Below are positions 1,426 through 8,398 of a DNA stretch of 32,729 bases, in pieces. Each line of letters begins with the position of its first letter. Within the stretch, counting starts at the first letter, position 1. The DNA lies in assembly GCA_902787835.1 (NCBI GenBank), contig CADAHU010000011.1, positions 1-32,729 on the forward strand, written 5' to 3'. The notes beneath the pieces were generated by a model. That model had not been told where the DNA came from and searched no databases. It saw nothing but the letters and a program-made list of their open reading frames with translations. The stretch comes from an uncultured Eubacteriales bacterium (GTDB lineage: Bacteria; Bacillota; Clostridia; Christensenellales; Aristaeellaceae). The translations under genes were made by a program, and so were the position numbers.

Positions 1426-2724
1426 TTGGAGCATTTGATTACCCATGTGGACAGCGGCAGCCCCGCCTGGCGCAGCGGCCTCAGGCCCGGCGACACGCTG
1501 CTGGAGATCAACGGCGAGGAGATCATCGACCAGATCGATTATCAATCGCTGTCCAGCCGCCGGCATGTGATATTGCACGTGCGCAAGGCCGACGGCCGGG
1601 ATTGGCACGTGGAATTGGTCAAGCCCGTGGGGCGCCCCCTGGGGCTGTCCTTTGGCGAAAGCATGGAGCTTACGCCCCGGGTATGCAAAAACAAGTGCGT
1701 ATTCTGCTTCATCGATCAGATGCCCCCGGCCTGCCGGGAATCGCTCTACGTCAAGGACGACGACTGGCGCATGAGCCTGCTGATGGGCAACTTTATCACC
1801 ATGACCAACATGAACGACCAGGAGTTTGACCGGGTGGTGCGCCGCCGGGTGAGCCCGCTGTTCATATCGGTGCATGCGGCGGAACCCGATCTGCGGGTAA
1901 AGCTGATGGCCAATCCCGAGGCCGCCAAGCTGCGGGAGCGCCTGGATATCCTCAAGGAAAACGGCATCCGCTTCCACTGCCAGATCGTGCTCTGCCCGGG
2001 GCTCAACGACGGCATCCACCTGGAGCGCACCCTGGAGGCGCTCTCCTCCTATCTGCCCGCCGCCCGGAGCGCCGCGCTGGTGCCCGTGGGGCTGACCAAA
2101 TACAGGGAGGGGCTTTATCCCCTGCGCCCCTATACCCGGGAGGAAGCGCGGCAGGTACTGGAAATCTGCGAAAAATGGCAGCGGCGCTTTCTGCGGGAGG
2201 CCGGAACGCGGTTCGTATTCCCCTCCGATGAGATGCTCTGCATCGCCGGGCACCCGATCCCGGAGGAAGCGTATTACGAAAACTATCCCCAGATCGAGAA
2301 CGGCGTGGGCCTGATGCGGCAGTTCCTGAACGGGCTGATCTCCGCCAGCCAGGCTAATACCGCCTCGGCTGTCCCCCGGCGGGTGGTGATCCCCTGCGGA
2401 GTGAGCATCGCGCCCTACCTGCAGCAGTGGGCCGATACCTACGGGCCCGCGGGCGTGAAGGTGCGGGTGCAGGCGATCCAAAACCGCTTTTTCGGGGAGA
2501 CCATCACCGTGACCGGTCTGCTCACCGGGCGGGATATCCTGGAGCAGCTGGATACCGACGGCGCCGACGAGGTGATCCTCTGCCAGGTGACGCTGCGGGA
2601 GGCGGGAGACCTTTTCCTGGATGATCTGCCGCTCAGCGAATTCCGGGCCGCGCTGCCCGTTCCCCTGACCATTACCCCCAACCGGGGCGACGCGCTGTTC
2701 GCCGCCCTGCTGGGATCACGATAA
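1426..2724 (+). CDS. DUF512-family radical SAM/PDZ protein
   Basis: A 432-residue protein of the DUF512 type, which joins an N-terminal PDZ-like domain (about residues 1-65, with GLRPGDTLLEING), a cysteine-rich radical-SAM-like core and a C-terminal DUF512 region. The iron-sulfur cysteines are C87, C91 and C94 in CKNKCVFCFIDQMP. The family landmarks YVKDDDWRMSLLMGNFIT, GLTKYREGLYPLRP and NRFFGETITVTGLLTGRD are all present, so the protein looks complete. The biochemical role of the family is not established. The start is a TTG at 1426, nine bases after GGAGGG. The ATG at 1419 is in another frame and too close to that site. The gene ends nine bases before der, the arrangement usual in clostridia, which suggests a link to ribosome or translation functions. 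Confidence 0.9.
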   Translation: MEHLITHVDSGSPAWRSGLRPGDTLLEINGEEIIDQIDYQSLSSRRHVILHVRKADGRDWHVELVKPVGRPLGLSFGESMELTPRVCKNKCVFCFIDQMPPACRESLYVKDDDWRMSLLMGNFITMTNMNDQEFDRVVRRRVSPLFISVHAAEPDLRVKLMANPEAAKLRERLDILKENGIRFHCQIVLCPGLNDGIHLERTLEALSSYLPAARSAALVPVGLTKYREGLYPLRPYTREEARQVLEICEKWQRRFLREAGTRFVFPSDEMLCIAGHPIPEEAYYENYPQIENGVGLMRQFLNGLISASQANTASAVPRRVVIPCGVSIAPYLQQWADTYGPAGVKVRVQAIQNRFFGETITVTGLLTGRDILEQLDTDGADEVILCQVTLREAGDLFLDDLPLSEFRAALPVPLTITPNRGDALFAALLGSR

Positions 2725-2733
2725 GGAGCATAA

Positions 2734-4083
2734 ATGAAGATCAAACCGCTTGTGGCCATCGTGGGCCGGCCCAACGTGGGCAAATCCACCTTTTTCAATA
2801 AAATTGCCGGGCACCGGGTCTCCATCGTGGAGGATACCCCCGGCGTCACCCGGGACCGCATCTACGCCGACGTGGAATGGACGGGACGGGAGTTTACGCT
2901 GATCGATACCGGCGGCATCGACCCTCGCAGCGAGGACGCGCTGCTAAGCCAGATGCGCCGCCAGGCGGAGATCGCCATCGATACCGCCGATGTGATCTGC
3001 TTCTTCTGCGACGCCCGGGAGGGCATGACCCCGGATGACGAAGAGGTATCCACCCTGCTGCGCAAAACCCGCAAGCCCGTGCTGCTGGTGGTCAACAAGC
3101 TGGATCACGGCGGGCTGAACGACGTGCTCTACGAGTTTTACGCCCTGGGCCTGGGCGATCCCATCGGCATCTCCGCCGCCAACATGCTGGGCCTGGGCGA
3201 TCTTCTGGATGAGATCGTCAAAAACCTGCCGCCCAAAGGCGAGGATGAGGAGGACGAGACCGACGCCCTGCACGAGATCCAGCTGGCGCTGGTGGGCCGC
3301 CCCAACGTGGGCAAAAGCAGCCTGACCAACCGGCTGCTGGGCCAGGAGCGGGTGATGGTCAGCGATATCCCCGGCACCACCCGGGACGCCATCGATACGC
3401 ACTTTGAGAGCGAGTGGGGCGGCCGGTACAACATCATCGATACCGCCGGCATCCGCCGCAAACGCGCCATCGAGGATGAATCGCTGGAACGGTACAGCGT
3501 GCTGCGCGCCATCGCCGCCATCCGCCGCTGCGATGTGGCGCTGCTGGTGATCGACGCCGTGGACGGCGTGACCGAGCAGGATACCAAAATCGCGGGCATC
3601 ATCGCCGACGAGGGCAAGGCCGTGATCGTGGTGGTCAACAAATGGGATATCCCCGAAAAGGACACCGGCACCCTGGAAAAATACCGCAAGGAAGTGCTGG
3701 AGGACCTCAAATTTATGGATTACGCGCCGGTGCTGTTCATCAGCGCCCTCACCGGCCAGCGGGTGCACACCGTGCTGGACGCGGTGGATCAGGCCTATGC
3801 CCAGGCCAGCAAGCGCGTGCCCACCGGCATGCTCAACGATGTGCTGGGCGACGCGCAGATCGCCCTGCAGCCGCCCATGGCCGGCGGGCGCAGACTCAAG
3901 ATCTACTACGGCACCCAGATCGGCGTCTGCCCGCCGCAGTTTGCCCTGTTCGTCAACGACGAGGATCTGATGCATTTTGCCTATCAGCGCTACCTGGAAA
4001 ACCAGCTGCGCAAGGCCTTTGACTTTTCTGGAACGCCCATACGCTTTGCGCTGCGTCAGCGCACCAAGGAGGGAAATCCATGA
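2734..4083 (+). CDS. der: Ribosome biogenesis GTPase Der (EngA)
   Basis: A 449-residue tandem GTPase that helps assemble the 50S ribosomal subunit. Two complete G domains are visible. The first has GRPNVGKS (11-18), DTPGVTRD and NKLD (121-124). The second has GRPNVGKS (188-195), DIPGTTRD, DTAG and NKWD (302-305). The acidic linker between them (about 169-178) is typical. The last hundred residues form the KH-like RNA-binding domain. Length and domain order are normal. An AAGGAG site lies just before the ATG. The stop codon overlaps the start of plsY (ATGA), so translation of the two is probably coupled. It shares the promoter at 1372-1400 with the DUF512 gene. Confidence 0.98.
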   Translation: MKIKPLVAIVGRPNVGKSTFFNKIAGHRVSIVEDTPGVTRDRIYADVEWTGREFTLIDTGGIDPRSEDALLSQMRRQAEIAIDTADVICFFCDAREGMTPDDEEVSTLLRKTRKPVLLVVNKLDHGGLNDVLYEFYALGLGDPIGISAANMLGLGDLLDEIVKNLPPKGEDEEDETDALHEIQLALVGRPNVGKSSLTNRLLGQERVMVSDIPGTTRDAIDTHFESEWGGRYNIIDTAGIRRKRAIEDESLERYSVLRAIAAIRRCDVALLVIDAVDGVTEQDTKIAGIIADEGKAVIVVVNKWDIPEKDTGTLEKYRKEVLEDLKFMDYAPVLFISALTGQRVHTVLDAVDQAYAQASKRVPTGMLNDVLGDAQIALQPPMAGGRRLKIYYGTQIGVCPPQFALFVNDEDLMHFAYQRYLENQLRKAFDFSGTPIRFALRQRTKEGNP

Positions 4084-4697
4084 ACAAGTATATAGCGCTG
4101 CTGCTGGCCGCCGTGATCGGCTACCTGCTGGGCAGCGTATCTACAGGCATCCTTTATTCCCGCTCCATGGGCCGGGATATCCGTACCGAGGGCAGCAAAA
4201 ACAGCGGCGCCACCAACATGACCCGGGTGCACGGCCTGGGCAAAGGGCTGCTGACCTTCCTGGGCGATTGCCTCAAGGGTGTGATCGCCTCGCTGATCGG
4301 TTTGTGGCTGGGCGGCCAGCTGGGCGCCTGCGTGGGCGGCACCTGCGCCGTGATCGGCCATATGTGGCCGGTGTTCTTCGGCTTTAAGGGCGGCAAGGGC
4401 GTGGCCACCTGCATCGGCGTGGGCTTCGCCACCTATCCCCTGCTGGTGAGCATCGCCACGGTGATCGGCGTGGCCGCCATGCTGATCACCCGATACGTAT
4501 CGGTGGGCAGCATGCTGGGGCTGATCGCCTTCGGCGTGGGCGTCACCATCGTCCATGGCATCTGGCCTGTGGGCGCATGGGGCCTGGCGTTGGCCGCGCT
4601 GGTGGTATGGCGGCACCGCGCCAACATCGGCCGGCTGATCCATCATACCGAAAGCCGCATCGATCAGATGCACCTGAACAAGCACGCAGATCAATAA
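4080..4697 (+). CDS. plsY: Acyl-phosphate:glycerol-3-phosphate acyltransferase PlsY
   Basis: A 205-residue integral membrane enzyme that moves an acyl group from acyl-phosphate to glycerol-3-phosphate, the first step of phospholipid synthesis in most Gram-positive bacteria. Visible motifs are GSVSTG (18-23), the TEGSKNSGATNMTRVHG loop (36-52) and GFKGGKGVAT (101-110). Several hydrophobic helices surround them, as in the five-helix PlsY fold. Length is normal. The ATG overlaps the der stop by four bases. The gpsA and spoIVA genes that often follow in clostridia are absent; a terminator at 4703-4732 ends the operon. Confidence 0.97.
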   Translation: MNKYIALLLAAVIGYLLGSVSTGILYSRSMGRDIRTEGSKNSGATNMTRVHGLGKGLLTFLGDCLKGVIASLIGLWLGGQLGACVGGTCAVIGHMWPVFFGFKGGKGVATCIGVGFATYPLLVSIATVIGVAAMLITRYVSVGSMLGLIAFGVGVTIVHGIWPVGAWGLALAALVVWRHRANIGRLIHHTESRIDQMHLNKHADQ

Positions 4698-4732: not shown

Positions 4733-4793
4733 CTGCTCACAGGGAACTTTTCCCATTTTTATCCGTCCAAGCAATATGAAAGGAGCTGATCCC

Positions 4794-5543
4794 ATGAAAA
4801 AGCTTTTGGTTTTATTGCTGGTTCTTCTCTCCCTGCTGCCCGCCGCCCAGGCGGAGGAGCTGCCCGATTTATGGACGCTCACCGGTTTGGACGCTATGCA
4901 GGAAGCGCTGGCAAACGGCGCAGAGCTGATCGAGATCGTCTATGATACGGGCACAAAGATCGAGCGCGGCTATACCCTGACCGATCCCGACGAAATGAAC
5001 CTGGTTTTATCCGCCGTCCTTGATCTGCAGATCGCAGATGTTACCGATCTGTTTGTCACCGATATGTATCCGTCGCTCCACTTCCATCTGGACGACGGCA
5101 GCCAATATACCCTGGCCTTCGACGGCAAATGGCTGGAGGCGGACGGTGTCAATTACGTGCTGAAAAACGACGATATGCTGTGGCAGGTGCTGCGCGATTT
5201 CTCTGACCAGTACGCCCCGCCCCTGCCCGAGCGGTACATCCCCAACAGCGTGGATCTCTACCTGCCCGCCAATCCCTCCACCGGCTATGCCTGGAGCTGG
5301 GCTGCCGATGAACCCTTTGTGGTCAGCGTCACCGAGCAATACTTTGCCGATTCCGCCGAGCTGGGCCTGGCCGGCGCGGGCGGCACCCACTGGTTCCATT
5401 TTGACGGCCTGTATCCCGGAACCACCGCTGTCACCCTGACCTATGGCCGCTCCTGGGAGGAGGAGCCCGCCTCCCGCATCATTTATCGCATCACCGTCAG
5501 CGATCAGCTGGACGTGATGATCTGGGGCGTGGAAATGCAGTAA
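4794..5543 (+). CDS. Secreted protein with C-terminal chagasin-like (I42) protease-inhibitor domain
   Basis: A 249-residue protein with a clear signal peptide: MKK, a long leucine-rich core, and probable cleavage after AQA (18-20). There is no lipobox, so it should be released or surface-associated. Residues about 25-140 form a domain I do not recognise. The C-terminal hundred residues carry the three loop signatures of chagasin/ICP inhibitors of papain-type cysteine peptidases: NPSTGYAW (160-167), GAGG (194-197) and GRSWEE (218-223, where the family usually has RPWE). Inhibition of a cysteine peptidase is inferred from these loops. The ATG at 4794 is chosen because AAAGGAG lies eight bases upstream; an in-frame ATG at 4776 lies before that site. 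No terminator is visible between this gene and the small peptide genes that follow, so co-transcription is possible. Confidence 0.75.
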   Translation: MKKLLVLLLVLLSLLPAAQAEELPDLWTLTGLDAMQEALANGAELIEIVYDTGTKIERGYTLTDPDEMNLVLSAVLDLQIADVTDLFVTDMYPSLHFHLDDGSQYTLAFDGKWLEADGVNYVLKNDDMLWQVLRDFSDQYAPPLPERYIPNSVDLYLPANPSTGYAWSWAADEPFVVSVTEQYFADSAELGLAGAGGTHWFHFDGLYPGTTAVTLTYGRSWEEEPASRIIYRITVSDQLDVMIWGVEMQ

Positions 5544-5814
5544 TCTTTTAGGAAGAGATCCAGCTATTATCCAAAAGAAGCCTGTACGATATAGAAGCAT
5601 GAACTGCTGTCCGGTAAAAGCATGATTGGGCAGAAATGATCTGCCGTATGGATGCAGCTGTCGCAAGCCCATCCCGCCCGCGCGCATCAAAAATCAAAAA
5701 AAGATTCTTTCATTACTGCCACCTCCCCATGCGGCTGCGTATATACAAGTGCACGGGGCAATGAGGCCCCTGCAAAAGAGCAAAAAAGCCCCAAGGGCAG
5801 GAGGATAAAAGGCC
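5544..5814 (+). other. 271-base leader region before the small peptide genes
   Basis: I see no convincing gene here. Open frames beginning at 5626 and 5652 lack a ribosome-binding site and run into the real peptide gene in another frame. A short hairpin, GGGGC (5755-5759) with GCCCC (5766-5770), has no T tract. I could not find a promoter with good -35 and -10 boxes, nor a terminator for the upstream gene. Confidence 0.4.
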
Positions 5815-5979
5815 ATGAATTGCAGCAAGGAAACAGGCGATCAGGAACTGAGCGTAAATGAACTGGATCAGGTAAGCGGCGGTCAGGTCATCCAGATATT
5901 AAAGCCCGACTTTCCCCGTCCCCTCCCCATGCCGCAGCCTCCCCTGCCGATCATCCTGGATCTCCTGGCGGACAACTGA
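5815..5979 (+). CDS. Small double-glycine leader peptide (RiPP/bacteriocin-type precursor candidate)
   Basis: A 54-residue open frame with a strong AGGAGG site (5799-5804) ten bases before the ATG. Residues 12-23 read LSVNELDQVSGG, an exact match to the double-glycine leader pattern LS-x2-EL-x2-[IV]-x-GG that C39 peptidase/ABC exporters cut after the second glycine. Cleavage there would release a 31-residue core (24-54) with eight prolines between residues 31 and 45 (including RPLPMPQPPLP) and an acidic LLADN end. The core has no cysteine; the only cysteine, C3, is in the leader. Lanthionine or disulfide chemistry is therefore unlikely; an unmodified or signalling peptide is possible. No modification enzyme or exporter gene lies in the window. 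It is followed 115 bases later by a second small peptide with a related leader. Confidence 0.65.
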   Translation: MNCSKETGDQELSVNELDQVSGGQVIQILKPDFPRPLPMPQPPLPIILDLLADN

Positions 5980-6094: not shown

Positions 6095-6289
6095 ATGGAG
6101 AAAGCAATAACGGCGCTGTTTGGCTATCAGCGATTTGCGGGAAATGCGGATCTGCAAAGGGTGATCGATTCCGTTCACAGCCGCTGGGACTCGCGCAGCC
6201 TGAGCCTGGATGAAATGGAATGGGTGACGGCGGCAGGCGAGCCGCATACCCAGCGGAAAGAATGCACACCCTTTGGAAAGCAGCCATAA
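6095..6289 (+). CDS. Second small leader-type peptide with an AAG motif
   Basis: A 64-residue frame with AAAGGAG nine bases before the ATG, so translation is likely. Residues 36-48 read LSLDEMEWVTAAG. This aligns with LSVNELDQVSGG of the preceding peptide at every consensus position, with Ala-Ala(-Gly) replacing Gly-Gly. The longer N-terminal part (LFGYQRFAGNADLQRVIDSV, residues 8-27) looks helical and could be a recognition region. The part after the motif is about 16 residues and contains one cysteine (C57) and several charged residues. I know of similar short uncharacterised proteins in gut Firmicutes but cannot name the family. It is followed by an intrinsic terminator at 6298-6338. A precursor role is inferred from the shared motif and position. 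Confidence 0.6.
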   Translation: MEKAITALFGYQRFAGNADLQRVIDSVHSRWDSRSLSLDEMEWVTAAGEPHTQRKECTPFGKQP

Positions 6290-6297
6290 GCAAGAAC

Positions 6298-6338
6298 CAG
6301 CCCGACCGGATCAGCGCATCCCCGGCCGGGCTGTTTTT
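6298..6338 (+). terminator. Intrinsic terminator after the small peptide genes
   Basis: CAGCCCGACCGG (6298-6309) pairs with CCGGCCGGGCTG (6322-6333) with one mismatch and is followed by five T residues. It begins nine bases after the stop codon of the 64-residue peptide and is the first clear terminator after the chagasin-like gene. Confidence 0.85.
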
Positions 6339-6403
6339 ATCTTCATCGAAGCGATCCAAGAAAGCTCCATGTGTAGCTTGTTTTATCGTAATATATAATA
6401 AAG

Positions 6404-6438
6404 CGGCGGTGAGCGCCGTTTTTTTGCGTTCACCGCCG
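6404..6438. terminator. Bidirectional terminator between convergent transcripts
   Basis: CGGCGGTGA (6404-6412) pairs perfectly with TCACCGCCG (6430-6438). Read on the minus strand it is followed by CTTTATTATAT and would end the epimerase gene. On the plus strand a shorter stem, CGGCG (6404-6408) with CGCCG (6414-6418), is followed by seven T residues (6419-6425) and would be a back-up stop for the peptide transcript. Confidence 0.8.
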
Positions 6439-6454: not shown

Positions 6455-8398
6455 TCACATCTGCACCGTCTGATCGCTGACCTCGCGCATTTCCTCGGCG
6501 TCGAGGGCCTTCTCGTTGACCTCCTCCGGGGTATGATAGGTGGGCACCACCCGATGCAGCGCCTCCCGCACCGCGCGGTTGCTGCAGGTGGCCAGCGCCT
6601 GGCGCAGGATATCCAGCTTTTCCCCCATCTCCTGCGCGGTCAGGGGCTTGTCCCGCTCCACAAAGATCATATCGTTATCGGTCTTATCCAGCTCCTCGGT
6701 TTTGATCAGCAGCTCCTCATAGAGCTTTTCGCCGGGGCGCAGGCCGGTCTCCACGATATCGATATCCTGATAAGGCTCCAGCCCCGACAGGCGGATCATA
6801 TTCTCCGCCAGATCCAGGATCTTGACCGGCTTGCCCATATCCAGGGCGTACAGATCGCCGCCCCGGGCGATCACGCCGGACATCAGCACCAGCTGGCTGG
6901 CCTCCGGGATGGTCATAAAGTAACGGATGATGCGCTTATCCGTGATGGTGACCGGGCCGCCCATGGCGATCTGCCGCCGGAACAGCGGGATCACCGAGCC
7001 GTTGCTGCCCAGCACGTTGCCAAACCGGGTGGCGCTGAAGGAGGTTTTCTCCCCGCCGCGGCTCTGCACGATCATCTCGCACACGCGCTTGGTGGCGCCC
7101 ATCACGTTGGTGGGGTTCACCACGCCGTATTTTTCGCAAGCCTCCACCAGGGTCAGCGTGCCAAACACGTTATTGCGCACCGCCTCGCAGCAGTTGCGCT
7201 CCATCAGCGGCACGTGCTTATGCGCCGCGGCATGCAGCACGATATGGGGCGTATGGCGAGAGAGGATCTTTTCCATCTCCTCCCGGTTGCAGATGTTGGC
7301 GATCTCCACCCGCATGTTCAGCTGATCGCCGTACTTGAGCCGCAGCTCCTGCTCGATATCGTATGCGCCGTTCTCATAGATATCCAGGATCACCAGCCGC
7401 TCGGGGCGCATGCGGGCCACCTGGCGCGCCAGCTCGCTGCCGATGCTGCCGCCGCCGCCGGTGATCAGCACCCGCTTGCCGCTGTACCATTCCGCCGCCT
7501 CCGGGGTGATCAGATCGGCGGTACGGCGGAAGAGCAGCTCCTCAATATCAAACTCGCGCAGGTGCCGCCGTCCCCCATCCTGGCTTTCCACCGCGGGATA
7601 ATCGTATACCTTGATCTTGTACCCCATGCGGGTATACACATCGTATAGCTCCTGCTTGCGCTCCGCCGTTATATTGGGCAGGGCGATGATCACTTCCTGC
7701 ACGCCCATGGCGGCAAGCTCCTTCTCATGCAGGCGGGTGCCGTCCACCACCTCGATGCCCGCAATGCTGCGGCCCACCTTTTCCTGGCTCACATCCACGA
7801 AGCACACCGGATAATAAACCGCCTTGGGGTTGCGCTGCAGTTCATCCGCCAGCATGGCGCCGATGCTGCCCGCGCCGATGATGGCCACCTTGATGCGCTG
7901 ATCCATTTTCAGCATGCTCTCCTCCTGGAAGGAGACGCCGGTGACCAGCTTCAGCAGCTTCAGAGCCGTGCGCTCAAACACATTGCGGCGGCTGCGCATC
8001 TGGTAAAGATACTGATAGGCCAACCGCATCATGATGGCGCCCAGCAGATCCAGGCAGAACAGAGATACCGCCCGGATGGTCATCAACCGGGCCGGCAGCG
8101 CCTCCCTGAGCAGCAGAAAAACAAGCCCGGCCAGGAAGTTGGACAGGATCAGCCGGATATATTCCTTGGGCCCGGCATAGCGCCAGATAAACCGATAAAT
8201 ACCCAGGGACATGCGCGCCGCCATCAGCGATGCAAAGCCCAGGCCGGCATAGATCAGCGCCACGCTGCCGGTGATGGTATCCACGCTGGAACGGTAGAAT
8301 ACCAAAATAGCCACGCAGGCCACCGCGTAGCAGAGCAGATCAAACACAGTCAGCATCCAGCGGATGCGCTTTTTATTTTTCACTTGCGGTGTTTTCAA
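6455..8398 (-). CDS. Membrane nucleotide-sugar epimerase/dehydratase (CapD/PglF/EpsC type) lacking the TDK segment
   Basis: A 647-residue protein of the polysaccharide family that converts UDP-sugars, usually by 4,6-dehydration, for capsule, exopolysaccharide or glycan synthesis. Four hydrophobic helices fill residues about 15-125. A first Rossmann domain has GAGSIGAMLADEL (175-187). The catalytic SDR domain has LITGGGGSIGSELA (311-324), HAAAHKHVPLME (389-400), NPTNVMGATKR (428-438) and LRPGEKLYEELL. Homologues have about eleven residues between KYGV and VNPTN, ending in TDKA, the catalytic Thr-Asp-Lys. Here KYGV (423-426) runs directly into VNPTN at 7120/7121, so strand and triad are missing while the frame is kept. 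The enzyme is therefore probably inactive in the classical reaction, or the sequence has a 33-base error. The start is TTG (8396-8398) with GGAGG five bases upstream. Confidence 0.85.
   Translation of the reverse strand: MKTPQVKNKKRIRWMLTVFDLLCYAVACVAILVFYRSSVDTITGSVALIYAGLGFASLMAARMSLGIYRFIWRYAGPKEYIRLILSNFLAGLVFLLLREALPARLMTIRAVSLFCLDLLGAIMMRLAYQYLYQMRSRRNVFERTALKLLKLVTGVSFQEESMLKMDQRIKVAIIGAGSIGAMLADELQRNPKAVYYPVCFVDVSQEKVGRSIAGIEVVDGTRLHEKELAAMGVQEVIIALPNITAERKQELYDVYTRMGYKIKVYDYPAVESQDGGRRHLREFDIEELLFRRTADLITPEAAEWYSGKRVLITGGGGSIGSELARQVARMRPERLVILDIYENGAYDIEQELRLKYGDQLNMRVEIANICNREEMEKILSRHTPHIVLHAAAHKHVPLMERNCCEAVRNNVFGTLTLVEACEKYGVVNPTNVMGATKRVCEMIVQSRGGEKTSFSATRFGNVLGSNGSVIPLFRRQIAMGGPVTITDKRIIRYFMTIPEASQLVLMSGVIARGGDLYALDMGKPVKILDLAENMIRLSGLEPYQDIDIVETGLRPGEKLYEELLIKTEELDKTDNDMIFVERDKPLTAQEMGEKLDILRQALATCSNRAVREALHRVVPTYHTPEEVNEKALDAEEMREVSDQTVQM

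Follow-up and report, generated by a model that had tools for sequence, protein, structure and literature searches.

A proline-rich double-glycine peptide behind an ECF-type promoter: a probable member of a regulated export system of rumen and gut Clostridia

Introduction

Double-glycine (GG) leader peptides and NHLM-type exporters are already known. Substrates cut by C39 peptidases share a leader consensus, against which the leader motif LSVNELDQVSGG of the peptide described here was judged. With class II bacteriocins and other C39-exported GG peptides (TIGR01847, TIGR01193) this peptide has the leader motif and the GG site in common, but its TIGR01847 score lies just under the cut-off, no exporter or immunity gene is identified beside it, and its core is net-negative, proline-rich and without cysteine. 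Nif11-like RiPP precursors (TIGR03798) offer a second comparison: a Nif11-like GG open reading frame (ORF) of a related locus (L102; 28.3 bits, cut-off 32.3) lies behind the same promoter as our peptide, which itself gives no Nif11 match and has a leader of 23 residues. The nearest known exporters are those of the NHLM system (TIGR03794, TIGR03796, TIGR03797; Haft et al. 2010, PMC2887384), and the exporters linked to our small-protein family in relatives are of the same type. Our peptide differs in having neither an NHLP nor a Nif11 leader, and the related loci contain additional parts, namely an ECF sigma factor, a small protein that we call AAG and a promoter. The word 'sigma' is absent from the main text of the NHLM paper, and the main text of a bacteriocin survey of the Hungate1000 collection (PMC13289728) is without 'sigma factor', NHLM or LysM. 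Among open-licence papers, whose silence is weak evidence of absence, none was found that links ECF sigma factors to NHLM or C39 exporters in this way, or that brings the AAG family together with an ECF sigma, a promoter in common and GG cargo.

Here we analyse a window of 32,729 nt (the whole stretch of DNA studied), which is contig C11 of a 2.57 Mb assembly of an uncultured Eubacteriales bacterium (206 contigs, 83.4% complete). An earlier note, made from the letters of the window, had picked out a short ORF in it as a double-glycine precursor.

Results

A short ORF with a GG leader and a proline-rich core

The ORF and the signals in front of it are as follows.

5716–5743, plus strand: ECF-type promoter CTGCCA-N16-CGTATA, 71 nt before the start of the GG peptide; the motif also precedes many AAG genes of relatives
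5799–5804, plus strand: ribosome-binding site AGGAGG, 10 nt 5' of the ATG, read from the sequence
5815–5979, plus strand: putative GG-leader precursor of 54 aa, leader residues 1–23 and proline-rich core 24–54 (from translation, shuffles, codon score and TIGR01847)

Translation of 5815–5979 gives MNCSKETGDQELSVNELDQVSGGQVIQILKPDFPRPLPMPQPPLPIILDLLADN, in which Gly-Gly occupies residues 22–23 at the end of the leader motif. Translation also bears out the earlier description of 54 residues with a 31-residue core (residues 24–54, QVIQ...LADN) that holds eight prolines inside 15 residues and no cysteine; the core is net negative and becomes hydrophobic toward its end. The hydrophobic and acidic leader positions, the GG pair and the short core are those of a C39-exporter substrate. 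The ribosome-binding site, which had been called ideal, is strong in sequence, but its spacing of 10 nt is slightly long. Against the NCBIfam model bacteriocin_sig (TIGR01847) the peptide scores 15.2 bits, just below the cut-off of 15.7, and against Pfam L_biotic_typeA it scores 11.6 (cut-off 21.7). Neither TIGR03793 (NHLP) nor TIGR03798 (Nif11) of NCBIfam was matched at E ≤ 0.1, and the peptide thus lacks the leader of an NHLM precursor.

Chance was assessed with 60 dinucleotide shuffles of the window, a ribosome-binding site and the motif both being required. One such ORF is present in the window, compared with a mean of 0.017 (loose motif) or 0 (strict motif) per shuffled window. The codon score is 0.26 in frame, −0.77 and −1.30 in the remaining plus-strand frames and 0.07, −0.71 and −1.54 on the opposite strand; it exceeds that of 31 of 32 spurious ORFs located within known genes, and all 10 known genes score higher (0.43–0.78). 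A chance origin of the peptide is unlikely. The reading as a double-glycine precursor is therefore backed by the motif, the shuffles and the codon test, with independent support from the ECF-type promoter and from the AAG gene next to it, both described below.

Gene neighbourhood

The genes and signals on either side of the ORF are as follows.

4080–4697, upstream of the GG peptide: PlsY-type acyltransferase gene (Pfam)
4776–5543, just upstream of the GG peptide: I42 (chagasin-type) peptidase-inhibitor domain protein (Pfam)
6095–6289, plus strand: AAG-family small protein of 64 aa, MEKAITALFGYQRF...LSLDEMEWVTAAGEP... (from relatives and alignments)
6290–6345, plus strand: terminator-like hairpin with a U run after it (folding energy −22.3 kcal/mol, z −3.33)
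6455–8398, minus strand: polysaccharide biosynthesis gene, convergent on the GG/AAG pair (Pfam)

Between the I42 gene and the polysaccharide gene, only the GG peptide and the 64-aa AAG ORF are recognised. The hairpin at 6290–6345 is probably the end of a two-gene unit; it is missing from the plus-strand list of a consensus terminator scanner, whose terminator-like stems on that strand fall at 6400–6422. A Pfam scan of 29 window translations gave families for 19, mostly housekeeping or sporulation proteins, and none for 10 at the E-value limits used. Neither a C39 exporter nor an immunity gene was recognised among these 29, and the single radical-SAM protein (1426–2724, with DUF512 and PDZ domains) we take to be a housekeeping protein, so that the earlier claim of no exporter or modification gene beside the ORF holds for the translations scanned. 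Three features had escaped the earlier reading: the promoter, the AAG gene linked to the peptide, and another GG-motif ORF elsewhere in the genome.

The AAG family retains the pattern of a leader

We use 'AAG family' as our own label for the small-protein family that includes the product of 6095–6289, with the aligned consensus MExxLKxLFDFQKFEGN...ELSxDELxxVxAAGxP. A single-sequence search recovered the family from 8 of 60 genomes (E < 1e-4; own genome included) and a 73-member profile from 13 of 100 (E ≤ 1e-5), the latter threshold being reached in 2 of the 11 genomes of the own genus. Searches of Pfam and NCBIfam with 73 of the 86 distinct members returned no convincing match; the best Pfam hit, Topoisom_I (E 0.00087, 9 of 73 members), was taken as spurious. 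An AlphaFold model (mean pLDDT 64.8, pTM 0.32, helices only) was too poor for a fold search.

The leader-like motif ends in AAG in 80 of the 86 distinct members, in A[AS]GG in five (L129, L149, L151, L152 and L154) and in neither in one. In the 73-member alignment, which leaves out 13 of the 86, 66 sequences fit the leader expression (Gly also being allowed) and seven do not; all 66 have Ala-Ala in place of Gly-Gly. Judged from these patterns, the family retains a predicted leader-like helix and most of its members are without a GG site. The AAG gene in the window has a low codon score of 0.06, a value reached by 4 of 32 spurious ORFs, so that the case for its being a real gene rests on conservation.

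Two members (L154 7992–8351 and L156 8001–8363) carry a long C-terminal extension past the AAG/GG motif, which suggests that the family can also serve as a leader.

AAG genes of relatives adjoin ECF sigma and NHLM-type exporter genes

AAG loci were collected from genome_contigs (84,980 species), where 155 stretches matched one degenerate peptide pattern, 100 were confirmed and the best 80 were kept; since a single pattern was scanned, the sample is biased toward pattern-bearing members. Many of the loci are from rumen or gut, and their sources include uncultured Clostridia, Clostridiales and 'Christensenella sp.'. In 66 of the 80 loci the AAG gene has an ECF sigma gene no more than 1 kb away, often directly 3' of it; of 48 close pairs, 22 show a 4-nt overlap between the stop codon of the AAG gene and the start codon of the sigma gene. 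A C39 domain was found in 30 of the 80 loci, and a C39 domain or an NHLM-type permease in 37, many of the fetched stretches ending at contig ends. Downstream of the sigma gene, where an ORF was picked in 50 of 64 loci, no conserved anti-sigma gene was found: the largest cluster (10) was the AAG family itself, at least 11 other ORFs had a GG motif, and the rest were singletons or groups of two to three. The AAG protein is the only conserved partner of the ECF sigma that was found.

In relatives, the same promoter, the AAG gene and the ECF sigma gene are linked to an exporter of the NHLM type, composed of a C39 peptidase/ABC protein, a permease/ABC protein and an HlyD-like protein. The exporter of genome G019 passes the NHLM model TIGR03796 (915.7 bits, cut-off 853.3), its partner, at 708.1 bits, falls just below the TIGR03797 cut-off of 709.4, and only a weak likeness to TIGR03794 (E 0.0032) is seen in the HlyD-like protein of G016. 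Of the 13 AAG-positive genomes among 100 relatives, 11 have a strong match to C39 (E < 1e-20, a threshold chosen in this analysis), as against 13 of the 87 that are AAG-negative (Fisher p 1e-6, genomes being counted without kinship correction).

Eight AAG loci (L131, L132, L137, L138, L140, L145, L147 and L150) come from Treponema or Spirochaetaceae MAGs; seven of them have an ECF sigma gene and five have exporter genes, which suggests transfer of the system between phyla. In one further locus (L063 16918–17340) a repetitive QSTRPTRGET-type translation was noted, presumably a typical spurious ORF over a CRISPR array.

GG-leader proteins cluster around AAG genes

Within 1 kb of the AAG genes, 17 GG-motif ORFs were found in 169.8 kb (13 of 80 loci), compared with one in 413.4 kb at a distance of 4–8 kb, the density in the latter zone of the 80 loci serving as the empirical background. 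One of the 17 (L134) has SAG in place of GG. Since the copies in L107, L108, L114 and L119 are near-identical and L120 resembles L113, about 13 of the 17 are independent. The arrangement of the window, in which a GG-type ORF shortly precedes a same-strand AAG gene, recurs in L130, L134, L136 and L141. Several GG-leader proteins that adjoin these genes or sit behind the same promoter have LysM, SH3 or NlpC/P60 domains.

L062 2260–2493 and 2542–2757, L065 377–625, L085 2955–3215, L151 9092–9367: LysM GG-leader proteins near AAG genes
L071 6787–7059 and 7180–7464: two bacterial SH3 GG-leader proteins of genome G020, directly before a C39 exporter gene (Pfam, above cut-off)
L130 5542–5949: GG leader fused to an NlpC/P60 domain, adjoining AAG and ECF sigma genes (Pfam, above cut-off)

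The LysM assignments that exceed the Pfam cut-off are two in G016 and one each in G014, L085 and L151, and these proteins are apparently wall-binding cargo exported by means of the GG leader. Two other GG cargo proteins tested against Pfam gave no family.

A shared promoter

A strict form of the promoter was defined as CTGCCA, a spacer of 15–17 nt and CGTATA or CGTATC. It is present in 24 of 84 stretches of 180 nt upstream of AAG genes (absent from 60) and in none of 285 controls; the -10 part alone occurs in 52 of 84 and in 5 of 285, respectively. Within 200 nt of the GG ORFs of AAG loci, the strict form was found in 4 of 27 cases (L083, L085, L102 and L104; absent from 23) and in none of 78 control pieces, and the -10 part alone precedes 9 of 27 as compared with 6 of 78. 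The sequence CTGCCA-N16-CGTATA upstream of the GG peptide is thus what is expected of a member of the AAG-linked ECF regulon. The window holds the pattern once, at 5716–5743, and since it is not repeated before the AAG gene of the window, the GG peptide gene stands between the promoter and the AAG gene.

In the own assembly (2.57 Mb), CTGCCAN{15,17}CGTATA has two matches and the reversed pattern has none. Both matches precede GG-motif ORFs, one in the window and one on contig C140. A census of 60 relatives showed no excess (52 matches, 56 for the reversed control). When matches were read individually, 5 of 51 preceded a GG or AAG ORF, namely the two of the own genome, a match on contig C82 of G019 that precedes a GG ORF, and those before AAG genes of G005 and G027. 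Since there is no excess in the 60 relatives, the motif by itself is not enough to mark out the regulon in them, and the promoter argument rests on the upstream enrichment and the two matches of the own genome.

Relatives of the GG peptide

tblastn searches of 100 relatives, genome_contigs, viral contigs, plasmids and phages returned no homologue of the GG peptide. It matched itself and, weakly (E 0.09), a second ORF of its own genome; further weak matches in the 100 relatives (best E 0.017) were script-scanned for the motif.

Contig C140 of the own assembly (G000), 1908–2036, minus strand, locus L066: second GG-motif ORF, LSMDELEGVSGGW..., found by tblastn behind the other promoter match of the genome (2140–2166)

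This ORF starts at an internal ATG, while the ATG placed after an RBS-like sequence reads into another frame; this fits either decay of the ORF or an error of sequence or assembly. As a synteny anchor, the I42 gene has a match in 4 of 11 genomes of the genus, own included, and in G005, the sole synteny contig read, the contig ends about 120 bases past the gene. The earlier note had named the lack of a GG-bearing homologue in related genomes as grounds for rejecting its claim; no homologue of the peptide itself was found, but analogues in position and regulation that carry GG motifs do exist in relatives. Among these, a protein in four near-identical copies (L107, L108, L114 and L119) adjoins AAG and ECF sigma genes, its motif LSDDDLDQVAGG resembles LSVNELDQVSGG, and it too has a proline-rich tail. 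It differs in its leader of about 54 residues and in the absence of the strict promoter directly upstream, and the genome_contigs search with the window peptide did not return it.

Discussion

From the ORF, its motif, the promoter sequence, the gene neighbourhood and the co-occurrence of genes in relatives, all of which are shown here, we infer transcription by an AAG-linked sigma, cleavage, export and an extracellular role for the peptide. The GG ORF is probably a real precursor in an ECF-sigma regulon of GG-leader proteins that are served by an NHLM-type exporter. An ECF sigma would transcribe a two-gene unit with the GG peptide first and the AAG-family protein second. The GG leader would dock on the C39 domain of the exporter, which would cut the precursor after Gly23, and a 31-residue proline-rich peptide, unmodified as far as the scanned genes indicate, would leave the cell.

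Several results weaken this reading. The peptide has no homologue, there is no promoter excess in relatives, and the strict promoter is absent before most AAG genes and GG ORFs. The codon score is below those of all 10 known genes, and the C140 ORF, being out of frame with its RBS-linked ATG, is a hint of decay. In addition, the parts that would act on the peptide are absent from the assembly. The earlier note had proposed an orphan precursor served in trans and advised a search for a C39-type exporter elsewhere in the genome. The peptide is indeed an orphan at its locus, but the search of the 83% complete assembly found no C39 domain over the cut-off (best PF03412 E 3.23), nothing beyond 26% identity over 77 residues for an NHLM permease, and no AAG-type ECF sigma. 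The best sigma of the assembly is 32% identical (55 bits) to the query used, whereas identity to the same query is 35.9% or more, with a median of 47.7%, for the AAG-linked sigmas of 66 loci.

These absences bear most directly on a different explanation, which we regard as doubtful though worth keeping in view, namely that the lineage has lost the sigma and the exporter, leaving behind the genes for the GG peptide and the AAG protein as non-working remnants. Besides the missing C39, permease and sigma, the own AAG gene stands without the sigma that 66 of 80 loci have at a distance of 1 kb or less, its codon score is low, the gene reaches E ≤ 1e-5 in only 2 of 11 genomes of the genus, and the second GG ORF is out of frame with its RBS-linked start. 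Against decay, none of the ORF, the ribosome-binding site, the promoter or the AAG frame is disrupted, and the GG peptide has a frame-specific codon score. Missing contigs also explain the absence: among the 100 genomes only one other, G014 (75% complete), has an AAG gene but no strong match to C39, and since exporter and sigma parts often lie close together and about 17% of the own assembly is missing, one lost contig could account for it.

It is improbable that the GG peptide is retained in the cell and competes for docking or acts as a regulator, as may be the case for the AAG protein. The adjacent AAG family does keep the leader pattern with Ala-Ala-Gly for Gly-Gly in 80 of 86 distinct members, and since it is leader-like without GG, proteins of this kind with a regulatory, non-precursor role may exist in the system; the peptide, however, shows a regular GG site, and its core is distinct, being hydrophobic and rich in proline. 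A fortuitous ORF with a leader-like stretch is very improbable, for although the peptide has no homologue and a modest codon score, such ORFs arise at a mean of 0.017 per shuffled window and both promoter matches of the genome precede GG-motif ORFs.

If the peptide is a secreted member of the regulon, as we favour, an antimicrobial or signalling role for it is guesswork. Since other GG proteins of AAG loci carry LysM, SH3 or NlpC/P60 domains, the peptide may equally well act at the cell wall. Proline-rich antimicrobial peptides were considered as a family for the core and set aside, the core being net negative.

As for the AAG protein, we tentatively suggest that it may be an anti-sigma factor or sigma regulator whose motif for docking on C39 has an Ala-Ala site that cannot be cut, such that docking on or passage through the exporter would free the sigma. 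FlgM and sigma-28 follow a comparable logic; the proposed circuit would instead be built on a peptidase ABC exporter. If this is true, GG cargo genes such as that of the window peptide would be transcribed only once the exporter is ready, in an export-coupled sigma circuit.

With these results, a lone 54-codon ORF becomes a member of a definable regulon, and the peptide is probably a real secreted product of a regulated export system that has drawn little notice. Clostridia of rumen and gut combine a small-protein family still without a name with an ECF sigma, a promoter that can be recognised and exporters of the NHLM type; the family, sigma and exporter are also seen in Treponema. The promoter provides a lead toward unannotated exported peptides, and the system as a whole gives a testable idea, that a peptidase ABC exporter may control the transcription of its own cargo.
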